Shown one piece after another: positions 28,955 to 34,206 of a DNA stretch of 37,684 nucleotides. A model generated the notes under the pieces. It saw only the letters and a program-made list of their open reading frames with translations, searched no databases and was not told the origin of the DNA. Source of the DNA: Clostridia bacterium (lineage in GTDB: Bacteria; Bacillota; Clostridia; Peptostreptococcales; Acidaminobacteraceae); the NCBI GenBank assembly GCA_016937975.1, contig JAFGVN010000107.1:1-37684 (forward strand). Reading direction: 5' to 3'. The position numbers and the translations under genes are program-made. The stretch's first letter is position 1, and each line of letters begins with the position of its first letter.

Positions 28955-29506
28955 ATGGACAATGAGCAACTCATTGAATTAGCAAAAAAACAAAATAAAA
29001 ATGCATTGTCCATATTATTAACAAGTCATTATGAAATTGTTTATGGATATATGCTAAAGCTTACTTTGAATCCAGAAGTTGCAAAGGATCTTACGCAAGA
29101 AGTGATGGTAAAGGCGATTGTCCATATGAATAAGTTTAAAGGTGACTCTAAATTTTCTACCTGGTTGATTGCTATTGGCACTAATATCTACAAAAATCAA
29201 CTCAAAAAAAATAAACGTATGGTAATAACTGAAGATTTTAGCTTCTTAGATGCGATGACCTTTCAACATACTTCTACAGAAGATGCTTATATAAAACGAG
29301 ATAACATGAAAACAATTTTAAAGTTACTCAATGAAATGAAAGAACAACAAAAAATTCCTTTTCTTTTAAAACACTATTATGGTTACTCTTATGAAGAGAT
29401 AGCAGTTATACTTAAAATTCCAATAGGAACGGTAAGATCTCGCATACACAATACCATAAAAAAATTACAAGACTCCATGAAAGGAGGTTTATATGAAATC
29501 GTGTAG
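28955..29506 (+). CDS. ECF RNA polymerase sigma factor (SigY-like)
   Basis: A 183-aa sigma-70 family factor of the ECF group, with only regions 2 and 4. Region 2 (about residues 10-80) has AKDLTQEVMVKAIVHMNKFKG and FSTWLIAIGTNIYKNQLKK; region 4 (about 120-178) has LLKHYYGYSYEEIAVILKIPIGTVRSRIH, a helix-turn-helix for the -35. GAAGGAGGT precedes the ATG. The anti-sigma gene overlaps its end by 14 bases, which couples their synthesis. The gene set is like Bacillus sigY-yxlCDEFG, with the sigma gene placed after the transporter. Confidence 0.93.
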   Translation: MDNEQLIELAKKQNKNALSILLTSHYEIVYGYMLKLTLNPEVAKDLTQEVMVKAIVHMNKFKGDSKFSTWLIAIGTNIYKNQLKKNKRMVITEDFSFLDAMTFQHTSTEDAYIKRDNMKTILKLLNEMKEQQKIPFLLKHYYGYSYEEIAVILKIPIGTVRSRIHNTIKKLQDSMKGGLYEIV

Positions 29507-29876
29507 TTTTTATGAAACAATGATTCTTAACGAAGAAACTTCAGATAAATTAAATGAGCACTTAAAAAATTGCATCCAATGTCAACAGCTACAAAGTTTA
29601 ATGCGTTTTGAGACTACAGAAATCAAATTACCAGATGCCTTTATAGAGGATGCGGTTAAAGAAGCTTTCATAAAAGCTGAGCCAATTAAACGAAGACATG
29701 ATTTCTTTTCAACTATAGTTTTCATTGCTGTTGCCATCATACTTGTTAGTATCATCATCACCAGTTTGATGATACAAGACCAATTATTAAAATACTACTT
29801 TGGAGGCGTATCCTTGTTTATGCCGTTTACAGTTCCTGTATTCTCAATTATTCGTAAAAAGGTGGTGATGAAATGA
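29493..29876 (+). CDS. Zinc-binding anti-sigma factor, membrane-bound
   Basis: This 127-aa protein starts with a short ZAS (zinc anti-sigma) region: Cys4, then H23-x3-C27-x2-C30 in EHLKNCIQC. Two membrane segments follow (about residues 70-92 and 102-119). Such proteins hold the ECF factor at the membrane until a signal releases it. GGAGG lies within the sigma gene and the start overlaps it by 14 bases. It ends in TGA overlapping the next ATG (ATGA). No site for regulated proteolysis can be named. Confidence 0.85.
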   Translation: MKSCSFYETMILNEETSDKLNEHLKNCIQCQQLQSLMRFETTEIKLPDAFIEDAVKEAFIKAEPIKRRHDFFSTIVFIAVAIILVSIIITSLMIQDQLLKYYFGGVSLFMPFTVPVFSIIRKKVVMK

Positions 29877-30261: not shown

Positions 30262-31555
30262 ATAAATATTTTTTTCTGACTTCATCAGGTACCATATTAC
30301 CACCTGTTGACCAAATGATATGTGTTCCCCCTGCAACCATTTCAGGTGTGATACTGACTTGACCATAAATAGGTGCTTCAATTTTTAACATATCATAGAA
30401 TCCTTTTACACCCGCAGTAGCAGATGGTTCGAGAAAAACTTCATATTTTTCATCAATTAATTTCAAATAAGCTTTTAATTCATCATCCTCAACAGTGGAC
30501 ACACCCAATAATAATTCATCAATGATCTTACCAACAAATTTAGAAGCTCTTCCAACTGCAAGGCCGTCTGCAATGGTAATATTGTCTATATGGAAGTCTT
30601 GTACACATACTTGATCATGATACTCTGTCATCATCCCTAAGAGCATACACGGCGAATGTGTGGGTTCTACGAACATACAATGAACACGATCACCAAAGAC
30701 TTCCTTCAAACCATAAAGGATACCGCCAGGTCCACCACCTACACCGCAAGGAATATAAACAAATAAAGGTTTTTCACTGGTTATTTCTACTTTTGCTTCT
30801 TTTAGTTGTTCTTTCAGTCTAAATGCAGAAACTGCATAACCTAAAAACAGATTTTTGGAATTTTCATCATCGACAAAGTAAGCTGTTGGATCCTTTAAAG
30901 CAATTTTTCTACCCATTTCTACAGCATATGAATAGTCTGATTCATGTTCGATAACCTCACATCCAATGGATCTTAATAGATCTTTTTTCCATGTCATGGC
31001 ATCGTGAGACATATGCACATATACTTTAAACCCTAATTTTGCACTGATGATGCCAATACTTAAGCCAAGATTACCCGTTGAACTGACTACTACTTTATAA
31101 TTACTTAAAAACTTTTTAATTTTATCATCACAAATAATATCATATGGATCAGTTATTTTAAGCAAACCATTTTTAAACAACAATTCTTCAGCATATCTTA
31201 GAATTTCATAAATACCGCCTCTTGCCTTTACAGAACCAGAAATGGGTAATTGATGATCACATTTTAAATAAACTTTGGAATGACTATGAAAATCAACAAG
31301 TTCCAACAATGGTGATTCAATAATACCATCATGTTTATCTGTTTCAGGAAAAGCTTTTGCAATAAAAGGTGCAAATCTTCTTAATCTACCTTCGGCATCA
31401 ACAATATCTGAAATTGAAAAATTCAGTTTCTTCAACGCTTTAGAAGCATGGTCATATCTTGGATTAAGCCACTGTACTGGTTTATAATCCATCATGTTTT
31501 TTAATAAAGGATATTCTCCCAACCATTGTTCAATGGTTTTGTCTAATACTTTCAT
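30260..31555 (-). CDS. dsdA: D-serine ammonia-lyase
   Basis: DsdA converts D-serine to pyruvate and ammonia. This fold-type II PLP enzyme (431 aa) has its PLP lysine in PISGSVKARGGIYE, the phosphate/substrate region SSTGNLGLSIGI, and the glycine loop PCGVGGGPGG. Near its end it has EPSATAGVKGF and the STGGNMVP motif. The length is normal for DsdA. The ribosome site is GGGGGA, weaker than its neighbours. It is divergent from the YjfB gene (80 bp between) and monocistronic. Its pyruvate may feed central metabolism. Confidence 0.93.
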   Translation of the reverse strand: MKVLDKTIEQWLGEYPLLKNMMDYKPVQWLNPRYDHASKALKKLNFSISDIVDAEGRLRRFAPFIAKAFPETDKHDGIIESPLLELVDFHSHSKVYLKCDHQLPISGSVKARGGIYEILRYAEELLFKNGLLKITDPYDIICDDKIKKFLSNYKVVVSSTGNLGLSIGIISAKLGFKVYVHMSHDAMTWKKDLLRSIGCEVIEHESDYSYAVEMGRKIALKDPTAYFVDDENSKNLFLGYAVSAFRLKEQLKEAKVEITSEKPLFVYIPCGVGGGPGGILYGLKEVFGDRVHCMFVEPTHSPCMLLGMMTEYHDQVCVQDFHIDNITIADGLAVGRASKFVGKIIDELLLGVSTVEDDELKAYLKLIDEKYEVFLEPSATAGVKGFYDMLKIEAPIYGQVSITPEMVAGGTHIIWSTGGNMVPDEVRKKYL

Positions 31556-31586
31556 TGATCCCCCAGAATAAATAATTTCTTTTTTC

Positions 31587-31614
31587 TAAACCTTTGACAG
31601 CATTCTTCCGATAA
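31587..31614 (+). promoter_or_regulatory. sigma-D (sigma-28)-like promoter of the YjfB gene
   Basis: TAAA (31587-31590), 16 bases, then TCCGATAA (31607-31614) resembles the flagellar sigma consensus TAAA-N15-GCCGATAA. A sigma-A-like pair TTGACA (31594-31599) and TATAAA (31618-31623) overlaps it, but would start RNA after the ribosome site. Confidence 0.55.
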
Positions 31615-31635
31615 ACTTATAAAGGATGTGATGCT

Positions 31636-31812
31636 ATGGATATTGCAGGATACTCTATGATCTCCAATCAAATGAAACTTATGAATCAAGTTTCAATAGC
31701 AGTTGCTAAATTGGCAATGGATACTGCAAAAGAAAATACCAGTGAATTTGCCAAAATGCTACAACAAAGTGTAGAGCCAGGCAAAGGCACATCTATTGAT
31801 ATTAAAGTATAA
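31636..31812 (+). CDS. YjfB-family putative motility protein (58 aa)
   Basis: A short gene on the plus strand. The protein begins MDIAGYSMISNQMKLMNQ and ends GTSIDIKV. The start MDI, the middle VSIAVAKLAMDTAKENTSEF and the SIDI end agree with the YjfB family, called putative motility proteins. AAAGGA lies 10 bases before the ATG. In Bacillus, yjfB belongs to the sigma-D regulon, and a sigma-D-like promoter is present here as well. It is flanked by its own promoter and terminator, and lies between divergent dsdA and convergent aminotransferase. The molecular role is not known. Confidence 0.82.
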   Translation: MDIAGYSMISNQMKLMNQVSIAVAKLAMDTAKENTSEFAKMLQQSVEPGKGTSIDIKV

Positions 31813-31820
31813 TATCCGTG

Positions 31821-31850
31821 AGACACCATAAGGTGTCTTTCGTCATTTTT
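31821..31850 (+). terminator. Rho-independent terminator of the YjfB gene
   Basis: AGACACC (31821-31827), ATAA, GGTGTCT (31832-31838). The T run is interrupted (TTTCGTCATTTTT), so it may be only moderately efficient. Confidence 0.7.
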
Positions 31851-31854
31851 GTTG

Positions 31855-31890
31855 AAAAAACAAGGTGTTTTCAACTCAATGAAAACACCT
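31855..31890 (-). terminator. Rho-independent terminator of the aminotransferase gene
   Basis: AGGTGTTTTCA (31863-31873) and TGAAAACACCT (31880-31890) pair perfectly over 11 bp; TGTTTTTT follows on the minus strand. Confidence 0.9.
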
Positions 31891-31903
31891 CTAGTATTAA
31901 CTT

Positions 31904-33217
31904 TTATCTTTGAGCTTCATATTGTTGTAATAATTTTACAAACAATTCAGGAATTTTAGCCATGTTTTCAGGCGTTTCAACAAATGAGATTCTAAATTGA
32001 GTAGAACCTGGATTTGCACCTTCCTTAACATCGTAGAAGCCTGTCATTGGAGCAACTAACAAAGTTGTTTCAACACCATCAATCACTACAGAACCTTCAC
32101 TTGCACAGTAAATAACAAATTCACTTGCATTGAAGCCTGGTTTAACAACATTTCTTACATCAATTACAGAATAAATTGAAGCATCAGGACTTGAAACGAT
32201 TAGACCTGGTTCCAAAGTTTTTAAACCGTTGTATACATTGATGATTTGCTCTTTATAATACTCTTTAATACCTTTAGTCCATGCATGAATTTGCTCAGGT
32301 GTTTCATGAGCCAAAGCACCAAATACATACTGACCAATAACGTTGGCACATAAGTTAGCAGTATATTCAGCGACTGAACGATTGTTGAATTCTGGGCTAT
32401 CTGTAATAACCGCACCAATTCTTAAACCACATGCATTCCATACTTTGGAAGCCGTTTCAATACTAATTCTTCTACCTTCAATACCTGGAACGTGTTCATC
32501 TGTTATACCCCAGATACTTACTAATCTTTGACCATCTTCATAATATAATTCACGATATGCTTCATCACTTACCATCCACATATTGTATTTAACACATAAG
32601 TTTGCCAAGGCTTCCATAGTTTCATAATCATATAATTGACCTGTTGGGTTGTCATATGGAATAACTAATAAAGCACCTGGATTATTTGCTTTTATTGCTT
32701 CTTCAATTTGATCTAATTGTGGTAAGTTAAATTTACCATCTTCCCCAAGATGACGTTTAACTGTAACAGTTTTTCTGCCAAGGCGTTGAGCAAAAGATAT
32801 GTAGTTTGTATAAGCAGGGTCGATCATCATTAAAGGTTGCTCATCTGTTCCAGCAGGACCACATAAACCAACTAATAACAACTCCATACCTGCAGAACCA
32901 CCATCAGTTACCTGAATGTGTAATTTGCTTGTATCAAAACCTTCACAATTTAAAATATTACGGAATGCTGCTTGACATTCATCTGTACCTGCAGTTGTTG
33001 AATATCTAACAACACCTTTAGAAAATGGACTTTCTGGTGAGCTTAATTCAAACATTCTTTTTTGCATTGCAGGATTCGTTGGCAATGACACATTACCAAT
33101 ACCTACATTGATAACTGCTTCAGGCTTAACTTTACGCTCTTCATATTTCATTTGAGCCATACGTACAGCTGAAGGTTTTCTTGACTCAAAATGAGCAGAT
33201 AAAACCGGTTTACTCAT
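31904..33217 (-). CDS. PLP-dependent class I/II aminotransferase
   Basis: A 437-aa fold-type I aminotransferase. Visible landmarks are NVGIGNVSLPTNPAM near the N-terminus, VVRYSTTAGTDE, IPYDNPTGQLYDY (Asn/Pro contact), WMVSDEAYRELYY, and the PLP lysine in SIETASKVWNACGLRIG. The usual C-terminal Arg that binds the alpha-carboxylate is in TQFRISF. The amino-acid specificity cannot be told from the sequence; aspartate or aromatic amino acids are possible. AAGGAGA supports the ATG. A 16-bp palindrome lies between the probable -10 and the gene. Confidence 0.88.
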   Translation of the reverse strand: MSKPVLSAHFESRKPSAVRMAQMKYEERKVKPEAVINVGIGNVSLPTNPAMQKRMFELSSPESPFSKGVVRYSTTAGTDECQAAFRNILNCEGFDTSKLHIQVTDGGSAGMELLLVGLCGPAGTDEQPLMMIDPAYTNYISFAQRLGRKTVTVKRHLGEDGKFNLPQLDQIEEAIKANNPGALLVIPYDNPTGQLYDYETMEALANLCVKYNMWMVSDEAYRELYYEDGQRLVSIWGITDEHVPGIEGRRISIETASKVWNACGLRIGAVITDSPEFNNRSVAEYTANLCANVIGQYVFGALAHETPEQIHAWTKGIKEYYKEQIINVYNGLKTLEPGLIVSSPDASIYSVIDVRNVVKPGFNASEFVIYCASEGSVVIDGVETTLLVAPMTGFYDVKEGANPGSTQFRISFVETPENMAKIPELFVKLLQQYEAQR

Positions 33218-33413: not shown

Positions 33414-33434
33414 TAAAAAAGCGCTAATGCGCTT
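33414..33434 (-). terminator. Rho-independent terminator of cheR
   Basis: AAGCGC (33419-33424), TAAT, GCGCTT (33429-33434); T6 follows on the minus strand. The stop codon of cheR begins in the stem. Confidence 0.85.
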
Positions 33435-34206
33435 ATAAATATTTTTCATAGAAAAATGTTTTTAATGAATTGAATTTATATTTGTTAGGCATAATGATCT
33501 GCTCAGTGCTACCAACAAATAAAATACCACATGGAACGAGAGCATCATTAAATTTATGATACATTTCATCCTTTGCTTCTTCAGTGAAATAAATCATAAC
33601 ATTCCGACATACAATTAAATCATAATTTGTAGGATAAGTATCTTTCAACAAATTGAATTTTCTAAACTCAACACATCTTTTGATTTCATCTGAAATTTTA
33701 TAGGATTGACCCACTTGCTCAAAATACTTTTTCTTGAACTCTGCAGGGACATTGGCAATACTCTTTTCAGAATAAATGCCTAATTTTGCTTTATTGATCG
33801 CTTCATCATCAATATCGTAAGCTTGAATTTTTATTTTAGACAAGGGTAAGAAATAACTCATAACCATAGCAATGGTATAAGGTTCTTCACCAGTTGAGCA
33901 CGCAGCACTCCAAATTTTAATATTTTGCTTACCTTCCATTAATTTGGGAATAACTATATCCTTAAGATTTTCCCACTGAGAGGGATTTCTAAAGAACTCT
34001 GAAACGTTAATGGTTAAATAATTAATAAACTCATTGAAACGATCGACATCTTTATCAATTAAATTAAAATACTCTTCAAAATCATTCTTTCCATTTCTTT
34101 TGATCATAGATTCAATTCTACGTTTCATTTGTCTTTCTTTGTAACTGGATAGATCGATACCAGTTTTCTTTAAAACTTGACCTTTAAACTTCTCATATGG
34201 CGTCAT
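33433..34206 (-). CDS. cheR: Chemotaxis protein methyltransferase CheR
   Basis: CheR methylates glutamates of chemoreceptors with S-adenosylmethionine, setting the adaptation level. The N-terminal helical domain (about residues 1-75) is followed by TINVSEFFRNPSQW, the SAM site IWSAACSTGEEPYTIAM, AYDIDDEAINKAKLGIYS, and YDLIVCRNVMIYF. The 257-aa length is normal. The ribosome site is GGGGGGAC. No other chemotaxis gene is adjacent, so it is an isolated copy, between the aminotransferase and the rpsA cluster. Together with YjfB it indicates a taxis system in this organism. Confidence 0.95.
   Translation of the reverse strand: MTPYEKFKGQVLKKTGIDLSSYKERQMKRRIESMIKRNGKNDFEEYFNLIDKDVDRFNEFINYLTINVSEFFRNPSQWENLKDIVIPKLMEGKQNIKIWSAACSTGEEPYTIAMVMSYFLPLSKIKIQAYDIDDEAINKAKLGIYSEKSIANVPAEFKKKYFEQVGQSYKISDEIKRCVEFRKFNLLKDTYPTNYDLIVCRNVMIYFTEEAKDEMYHKFNDALVPCGILFVGSTEQIIMPNKYKFNSLKTFFYEKYL

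Follow-up and report, generated by a model that had tools for sequence, protein, structure and literature searches.

From our analysis of a 37,684-nt stretch of Clostridia DNA (hereafter the window), the short gene yjfB very probably belongs, as a one-gene unit, to the late flagellar (sigma-28/SigD) regulon; its transcription is predicted to depend on FliA and to end at a terminator of its own. The profile PF14070 (YjfB_motility) matches the ORF at 31636-31812 with 63.3 bits against a cut-off of 27 (E 2.1e-17), and the match covers the full length of the profile (positions 1-57 of 57). The initial annotation had proposed a short YjfB-family gene starting at 31636 behind a sigma-28-like promoter; the family assignment is confirmed by this full-length match, and the boxes lie at 31587-31614 as written and are kept in the genus. 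Both the 58-aa gene and its promoter had thus been read correctly from raw sequence.

The yjfB gene and its putative promoter

The features of the window to which the argument refers are as follows.

31587..31614 (+): putative sigma-28/SigD-type promoter, TAAA-N17-CCGATAA (from sequence, pattern, conservation and likeness to C. difficile fliC)
31621..31626 (+): ribosome binding site AAAGGA, about 9 nt 5' of the yjfB ATG (from sequence; kept in 4/4 aligned relatives, window included)
31636..31812 (+): yjfB, 58 aa, ATG start, PF14070 (from the ORF list and profile search)
31820..31839 (+): intrinsic terminator of yjfB, 8-pair stem and T-rich tail (from terminator scan, fold test and conservation)
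31904-33217 (-): aminotransferase gene, between yjfB and cheR
33433-34206 (-): CheR gene, its near end 1.6 kb beyond the end of yjfB

The PF14070 profile search found a single copy of YjfB in the 4.03-Mb genome. Since the gene upstream of yjfB is divergent and the gene downstream is convergent, yjfB looks like a transcription unit by itself. The predicted terminator stem has a fold z of -4.5 and beats 200/200 shuffles, and a similar AGACAC...GTGTCT stem follows yjfB in Acidaminobacter sp. JC074, the nearest named genome found (CheR 81% and S1 protein 90% identical), and in MAG21 of the same genus. The YjfB protein of the window is intact and 72% identical to both of these orthologues, and the YjfB alignment (n=14) holds 10 invariant columns. 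Structure prediction gave a single helix (residues 3-46) with a loose tail, albeit as a poor model (mean pLDDT 62.6, pTM 0.28); the YjfB alignment, searched against PDB sequences, returned no relative at E up to 1, and no signal peptide was seen by eye.

The promoter boxes can be written in two notations, TAAA-N16-TCCGATAA and TAAA-N17-CCGATAA, which denote the same positions. The CCGATAA box ends 21 nt 5' of the yjfB ATG, and the site is the sole exact match to TAAA-N15-18-CCGATAW within the window. The yjfB of JC074 has TAAA-N17-CCGATAA, likewise 21 nt before its ATG, that of MAG21 has imperfect boxes (TTAA-N16-TCGATAA) at the same distance, and in G001, which belongs to the same family, TAAA-N17-CCGATAC lies 42 nt 5' of the ATG. 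When the four upstream regions were aligned, CGATA, the TAAA/TTAA-like stretch and AAAGGA were conserved amid diverged DNA. A sigma-28/SigD-type promoter ahead of yjfB, conserved in the genus, is therefore supported by the placing of these boxes. PMC3865298 gives the C. difficile SigD consensus as TAAA and CG, 15 to 18 bases apart, and counts fliC and CD0226 among the SigD-dependent promoters.

In the explanation that we propose, FliA, encoded elsewhere in the genome, would recognise TAAA-N17-CCGATAA and transcribe yjfB alongside other late flagellar genes; we infer this step because the boxes are conserved and a FliA gene is present. The short yjfB mRNA would then terminate at 31820-31839, a terminator evident from sequence and conservation. 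Its 58-aa product, probably a long helix with a loose tail, might serve as a filament-stage accessory in flagellin production, export or assembly.

Motif statistics and alternative readings

The initial annotation had also suggested a scan for further sites of this kind. The strict motif, the window site included, occurs 32 times genome-wide; this is not above the 34 occurrences of the reversed control, and the motif is hence not enriched. As a rough measure of chance occurrence, the 32 sites, counted over both strands of the 4.03-Mb genome, correspond to about 4e-4 per 100-nt stretch, which is not a p-value because yjfB had been picked partly for its motif. Among the 28 strict-motif sites with assessable surroundings, 24 fall within ORFs of >=80 aa. 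The promoter claim rests, given these counts, on position and conservation. The GCCGATAA forms number 4 genome-wide against 1 in the control, and 8 against 2; one of the 8 sites precedes a flagellin. Outside ORFs, these forms precede a flagellin (on contig C97) and two genes whose products have signal-peptide-like starts. Intergenic GCCGATAA-type sites stand ahead of genes with signal-peptide-like starts near the middle of loci L040 and L157, and these genes are possible further FliA targets.

We scored the 150 nt upstream of yjfB in 69 loci (67 named loci, the window and G001). A score of >=10 was reached in 7/69, where 0.4 were expected from dinucleotide shuffles and 1 was found in the reversed control; a score of >=9 was reached in 17/69 (5.8 expected in shuffles, 2 in the reversed control). 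With the window excluded, 6/68 loci score >=10, close relatives of the window included. A good site is absent (score <9) within this distance in 52/69 loci. The upstream stretch of JC074 gives the top score in the reversed control too, which is indicative that AT-richness helps the scores. Nine more distant loci of the same family (L047-L055) had their ORFs read and lie outside the promoter scan, L058 was covered by a crude ORF screen only, and L059 and L060 are outside the analysis. Within the genome itself, the flagellin gene at C97:73345 has TTAA-N16-CCGATAA 101 nt upstream; no good site was found ahead of the flagellin-type genes C97:75312 and C97:70222, nor ahead of the flhA start.

Transcription of yjfB from an overlapping TTGACA housekeeping-type promoter instead of by FliA is very improbable. 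The TTGACA at 31594 is exact and is followed, at a spacer of 18, by TATAAA (5/6). Transcription starts 5-8 nt downstream of a -10 box, and the TATAAA extends as far as the ribosome binding site; such a start would yield a nearly leaderless mRNA with AAAGG cut off. Moreover, TTGACA is not kept at the aligned position in JC074, MAG21 or G001, and a sigma-70 scan of 31400-32000 did not report a plus-strand site at TTGACA/TATAAA. We rejected TTGACA as the main yjfB promoter on these three counts: conservation, the scan and the want of room for a leader.

The lack of enrichment of the strict motif across the genome would suit another reading, in which the boxes match by chance and yjfB is either a relic or expressed by read-through from elsewhere. 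Against this, the boxes keep their position in the genus although their surroundings diverge, each of the three genus members has a terminator of its own after the gene, the product is intact at the identity given above, and read-through is opposed by the divergent upstream gene. We hold this reading to be very improbable. Least probable of all is that YjfB is a broken-off flagellin piece (the C-terminal D0 helix) acting as a flagellin mimic: QQxAS-SVMKMAMD of YjfB resembles flagellin QQASTAMLAQANQ by eye and the flagellin C-terminus gave the highest probability among the profile comparisons with YjfB, but that probability is 0.54% (E 0.11) against 0.43% with both profiles reversed, and the fragment was rejected as not significant.

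Flagellar genes and lineage of the genome

FliA-dependent transcription of yjfB, the reading that we prefer, agrees with the gene content of the genome, which carries a full complement of flagellar genes and from its sequence does appear to have a flagellar regulon. The FliA/WhiG model TIGR02479 matches at C71:40941 with 251 bits (cut-off 189.6). The same cluster carries FlhA, an SRP54-type GTPase, a ParA-type ATPase, CheA, CheW, CheC, CheD and FapA; by our own naming parallel, we take the GTPase to be FlhF-like and the ATPase to be FlhG-like. Four Flagellin_N matches were found in the genome, one of which adjoins FlgK and perhaps FlgL; FlgK, FliW and CsrA lie on contig C97. FliA, flagellin, CheA and CheW, for which a search had been proposed, are all present, and a lack of a flagellar sigma factor or of flagellar genes, which had been named as grounds for giving up the promoter reading, is not what the genome shows.

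The nearness of CheR had been taken as a further hint of a shared regulon. The distance of 1.6 kb stands, with cheR on the opposite strand; the hint does not, as no promoter of this kind was seen by eye upstream of cheR, and we rejected CheR proximity as evidence for a shared regulon. Among 74 loci compared, a CheR homologue lies within reach of yjfB only in the 2 genus members. The order dsdA-like gene, yjfB, cheR, S1, ispH, plsC, cmk is common to the window, JC074 and MAG21; the aminotransferase between yjfB and cheR in the window has no match in JC074 or MAG21. Elsewhere in the window (28955-29876, plus strand), a small sigma factor of 183 aa with Sigma70 regions 2 and 4 precedes a 127-aa gene that matches no Pfam model, and the pair comes after genes for an ABC ATPase and a membrane protein. 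The 127-aa gene is perhaps the anti-sigma partner of the small sigma factor.

The lineage had been described as close to wall-less relatives, in which a motility regulon would be unusual. Neither description holds: these are Acidaminobacter-like Clostridia with mraY (298 bits), NCBI taxonomy places Acidaminobacter in the class Clostridia, order Peptostreptococcales, and flagellin occurs in 151 of 297 genomes surveyed in this order. A literature search on Acidaminobacter motility found nothing relevant. The genome is that of an ordinary flagellated member of the Clostridia, and yjfB with its promoter is unremarkable here.

Distribution, gene company and known systems

Across the 297 genomes, YjfB occurs in 78, and 77 of these also have flagellin; 74 have flagellin alone and 145 have neither (Fisher p 3e-27, for related and hence not independent genomes). 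The only genome with YjfB and without flagellin (G173) is 77% complete. The 74 flagellated genomes among the 219 without YjfB indicate that flagella can do without it. We further surveyed the same-strand genes within about 6 kb of yjfB at 69 loci (67 named loci, G001 and G131; representative identities by Pfam), and found flagellin at 29, CsrA at 14, FliD at 12 and FliS, FliW and FlaG at 11 each. The CsrA model also has weak minus-strand matches in L087 and L088, which fall on the S1 protein and not on CsrA. Alignment A3 was built from the window and 37/67 named loci, picked for complete matches and spread. The family is thus almost confined to flagellated genomes, often stands beside flagellin and its chaperones, and is biochemically uncharacterised. 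From gene company and co-occurrence only, we tentatively suggest that YjfB may act as an accessory protein when flagellin is handled.

Two small families recur beside yjfB, and no Pfam model reaches its cut-off on either. A123 (about 123 aa) is found in 10/69 yjfB loci, of which at least 6 have it immediately 5' of yjfB. B77 (about 77 aa) is found in 12/69, a count that leaves out four loci where the B77 model matched only a flagellin. Profile comparison of B77 with the N-terminal region of flagellin gave a probability of 77% (E 2e-5; reversed control 1%), with a flagellin profile that included some untrimmed upstream translation; from its sequence, B77 resembles the N-terminal D1 helices of flagellin. 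On a short MAG contig (L119:3374-3829, plus strand), a YjfB domain (27.7 bits, cut-off 27) is fused to a B77-like half, and two more yjfB copies lie just upstream of the fusion. In G131 (L158:7056-12068), tandem repeats of A123, yjfB and B77 follow a flagellin gene, with one yjfB shortened and mobile-looking genes interspersed. Searches of the window's genome for A123 and B77, run without a positive control genome, came back empty. Conceivably, though we think it rather unlikely, YjfB and the two helical families B77 and A123 could form an undescribed flagellin-handling module in which YjfB and B77 bind or replace flagellin segments in export or assembly, with YjfB acting alone in the window's genome. 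The YjfB-B77 fusion and the recurrent neighbours are a lead to YjfB function.

In Bacillus subtilis, yjfB belongs to the sigma-D regulon; a literature search on this regulon found nothing stating yjfB membership. The window protein is like the PF14070 family of B. subtilis YjfB in its full-length profile match. PMC10802407 presents YjfB as a small uncharacterised protein encoded among flagellar genes, in the company of sigma-28 and FapA. The window yjfB differs from that flagellar neighbourhood of the family, as it is isolated, adjoins the dsdA-like gene and lies outside the flagellar clusters read. The boxes and spacing of the SigD fliC promoter of C. difficile, a member of another genus and family in which the start was RACE-mapped (PMC3865298), are identical to those of the putative yjfB promoter of the window, TAAA-N17-CCGATAA.
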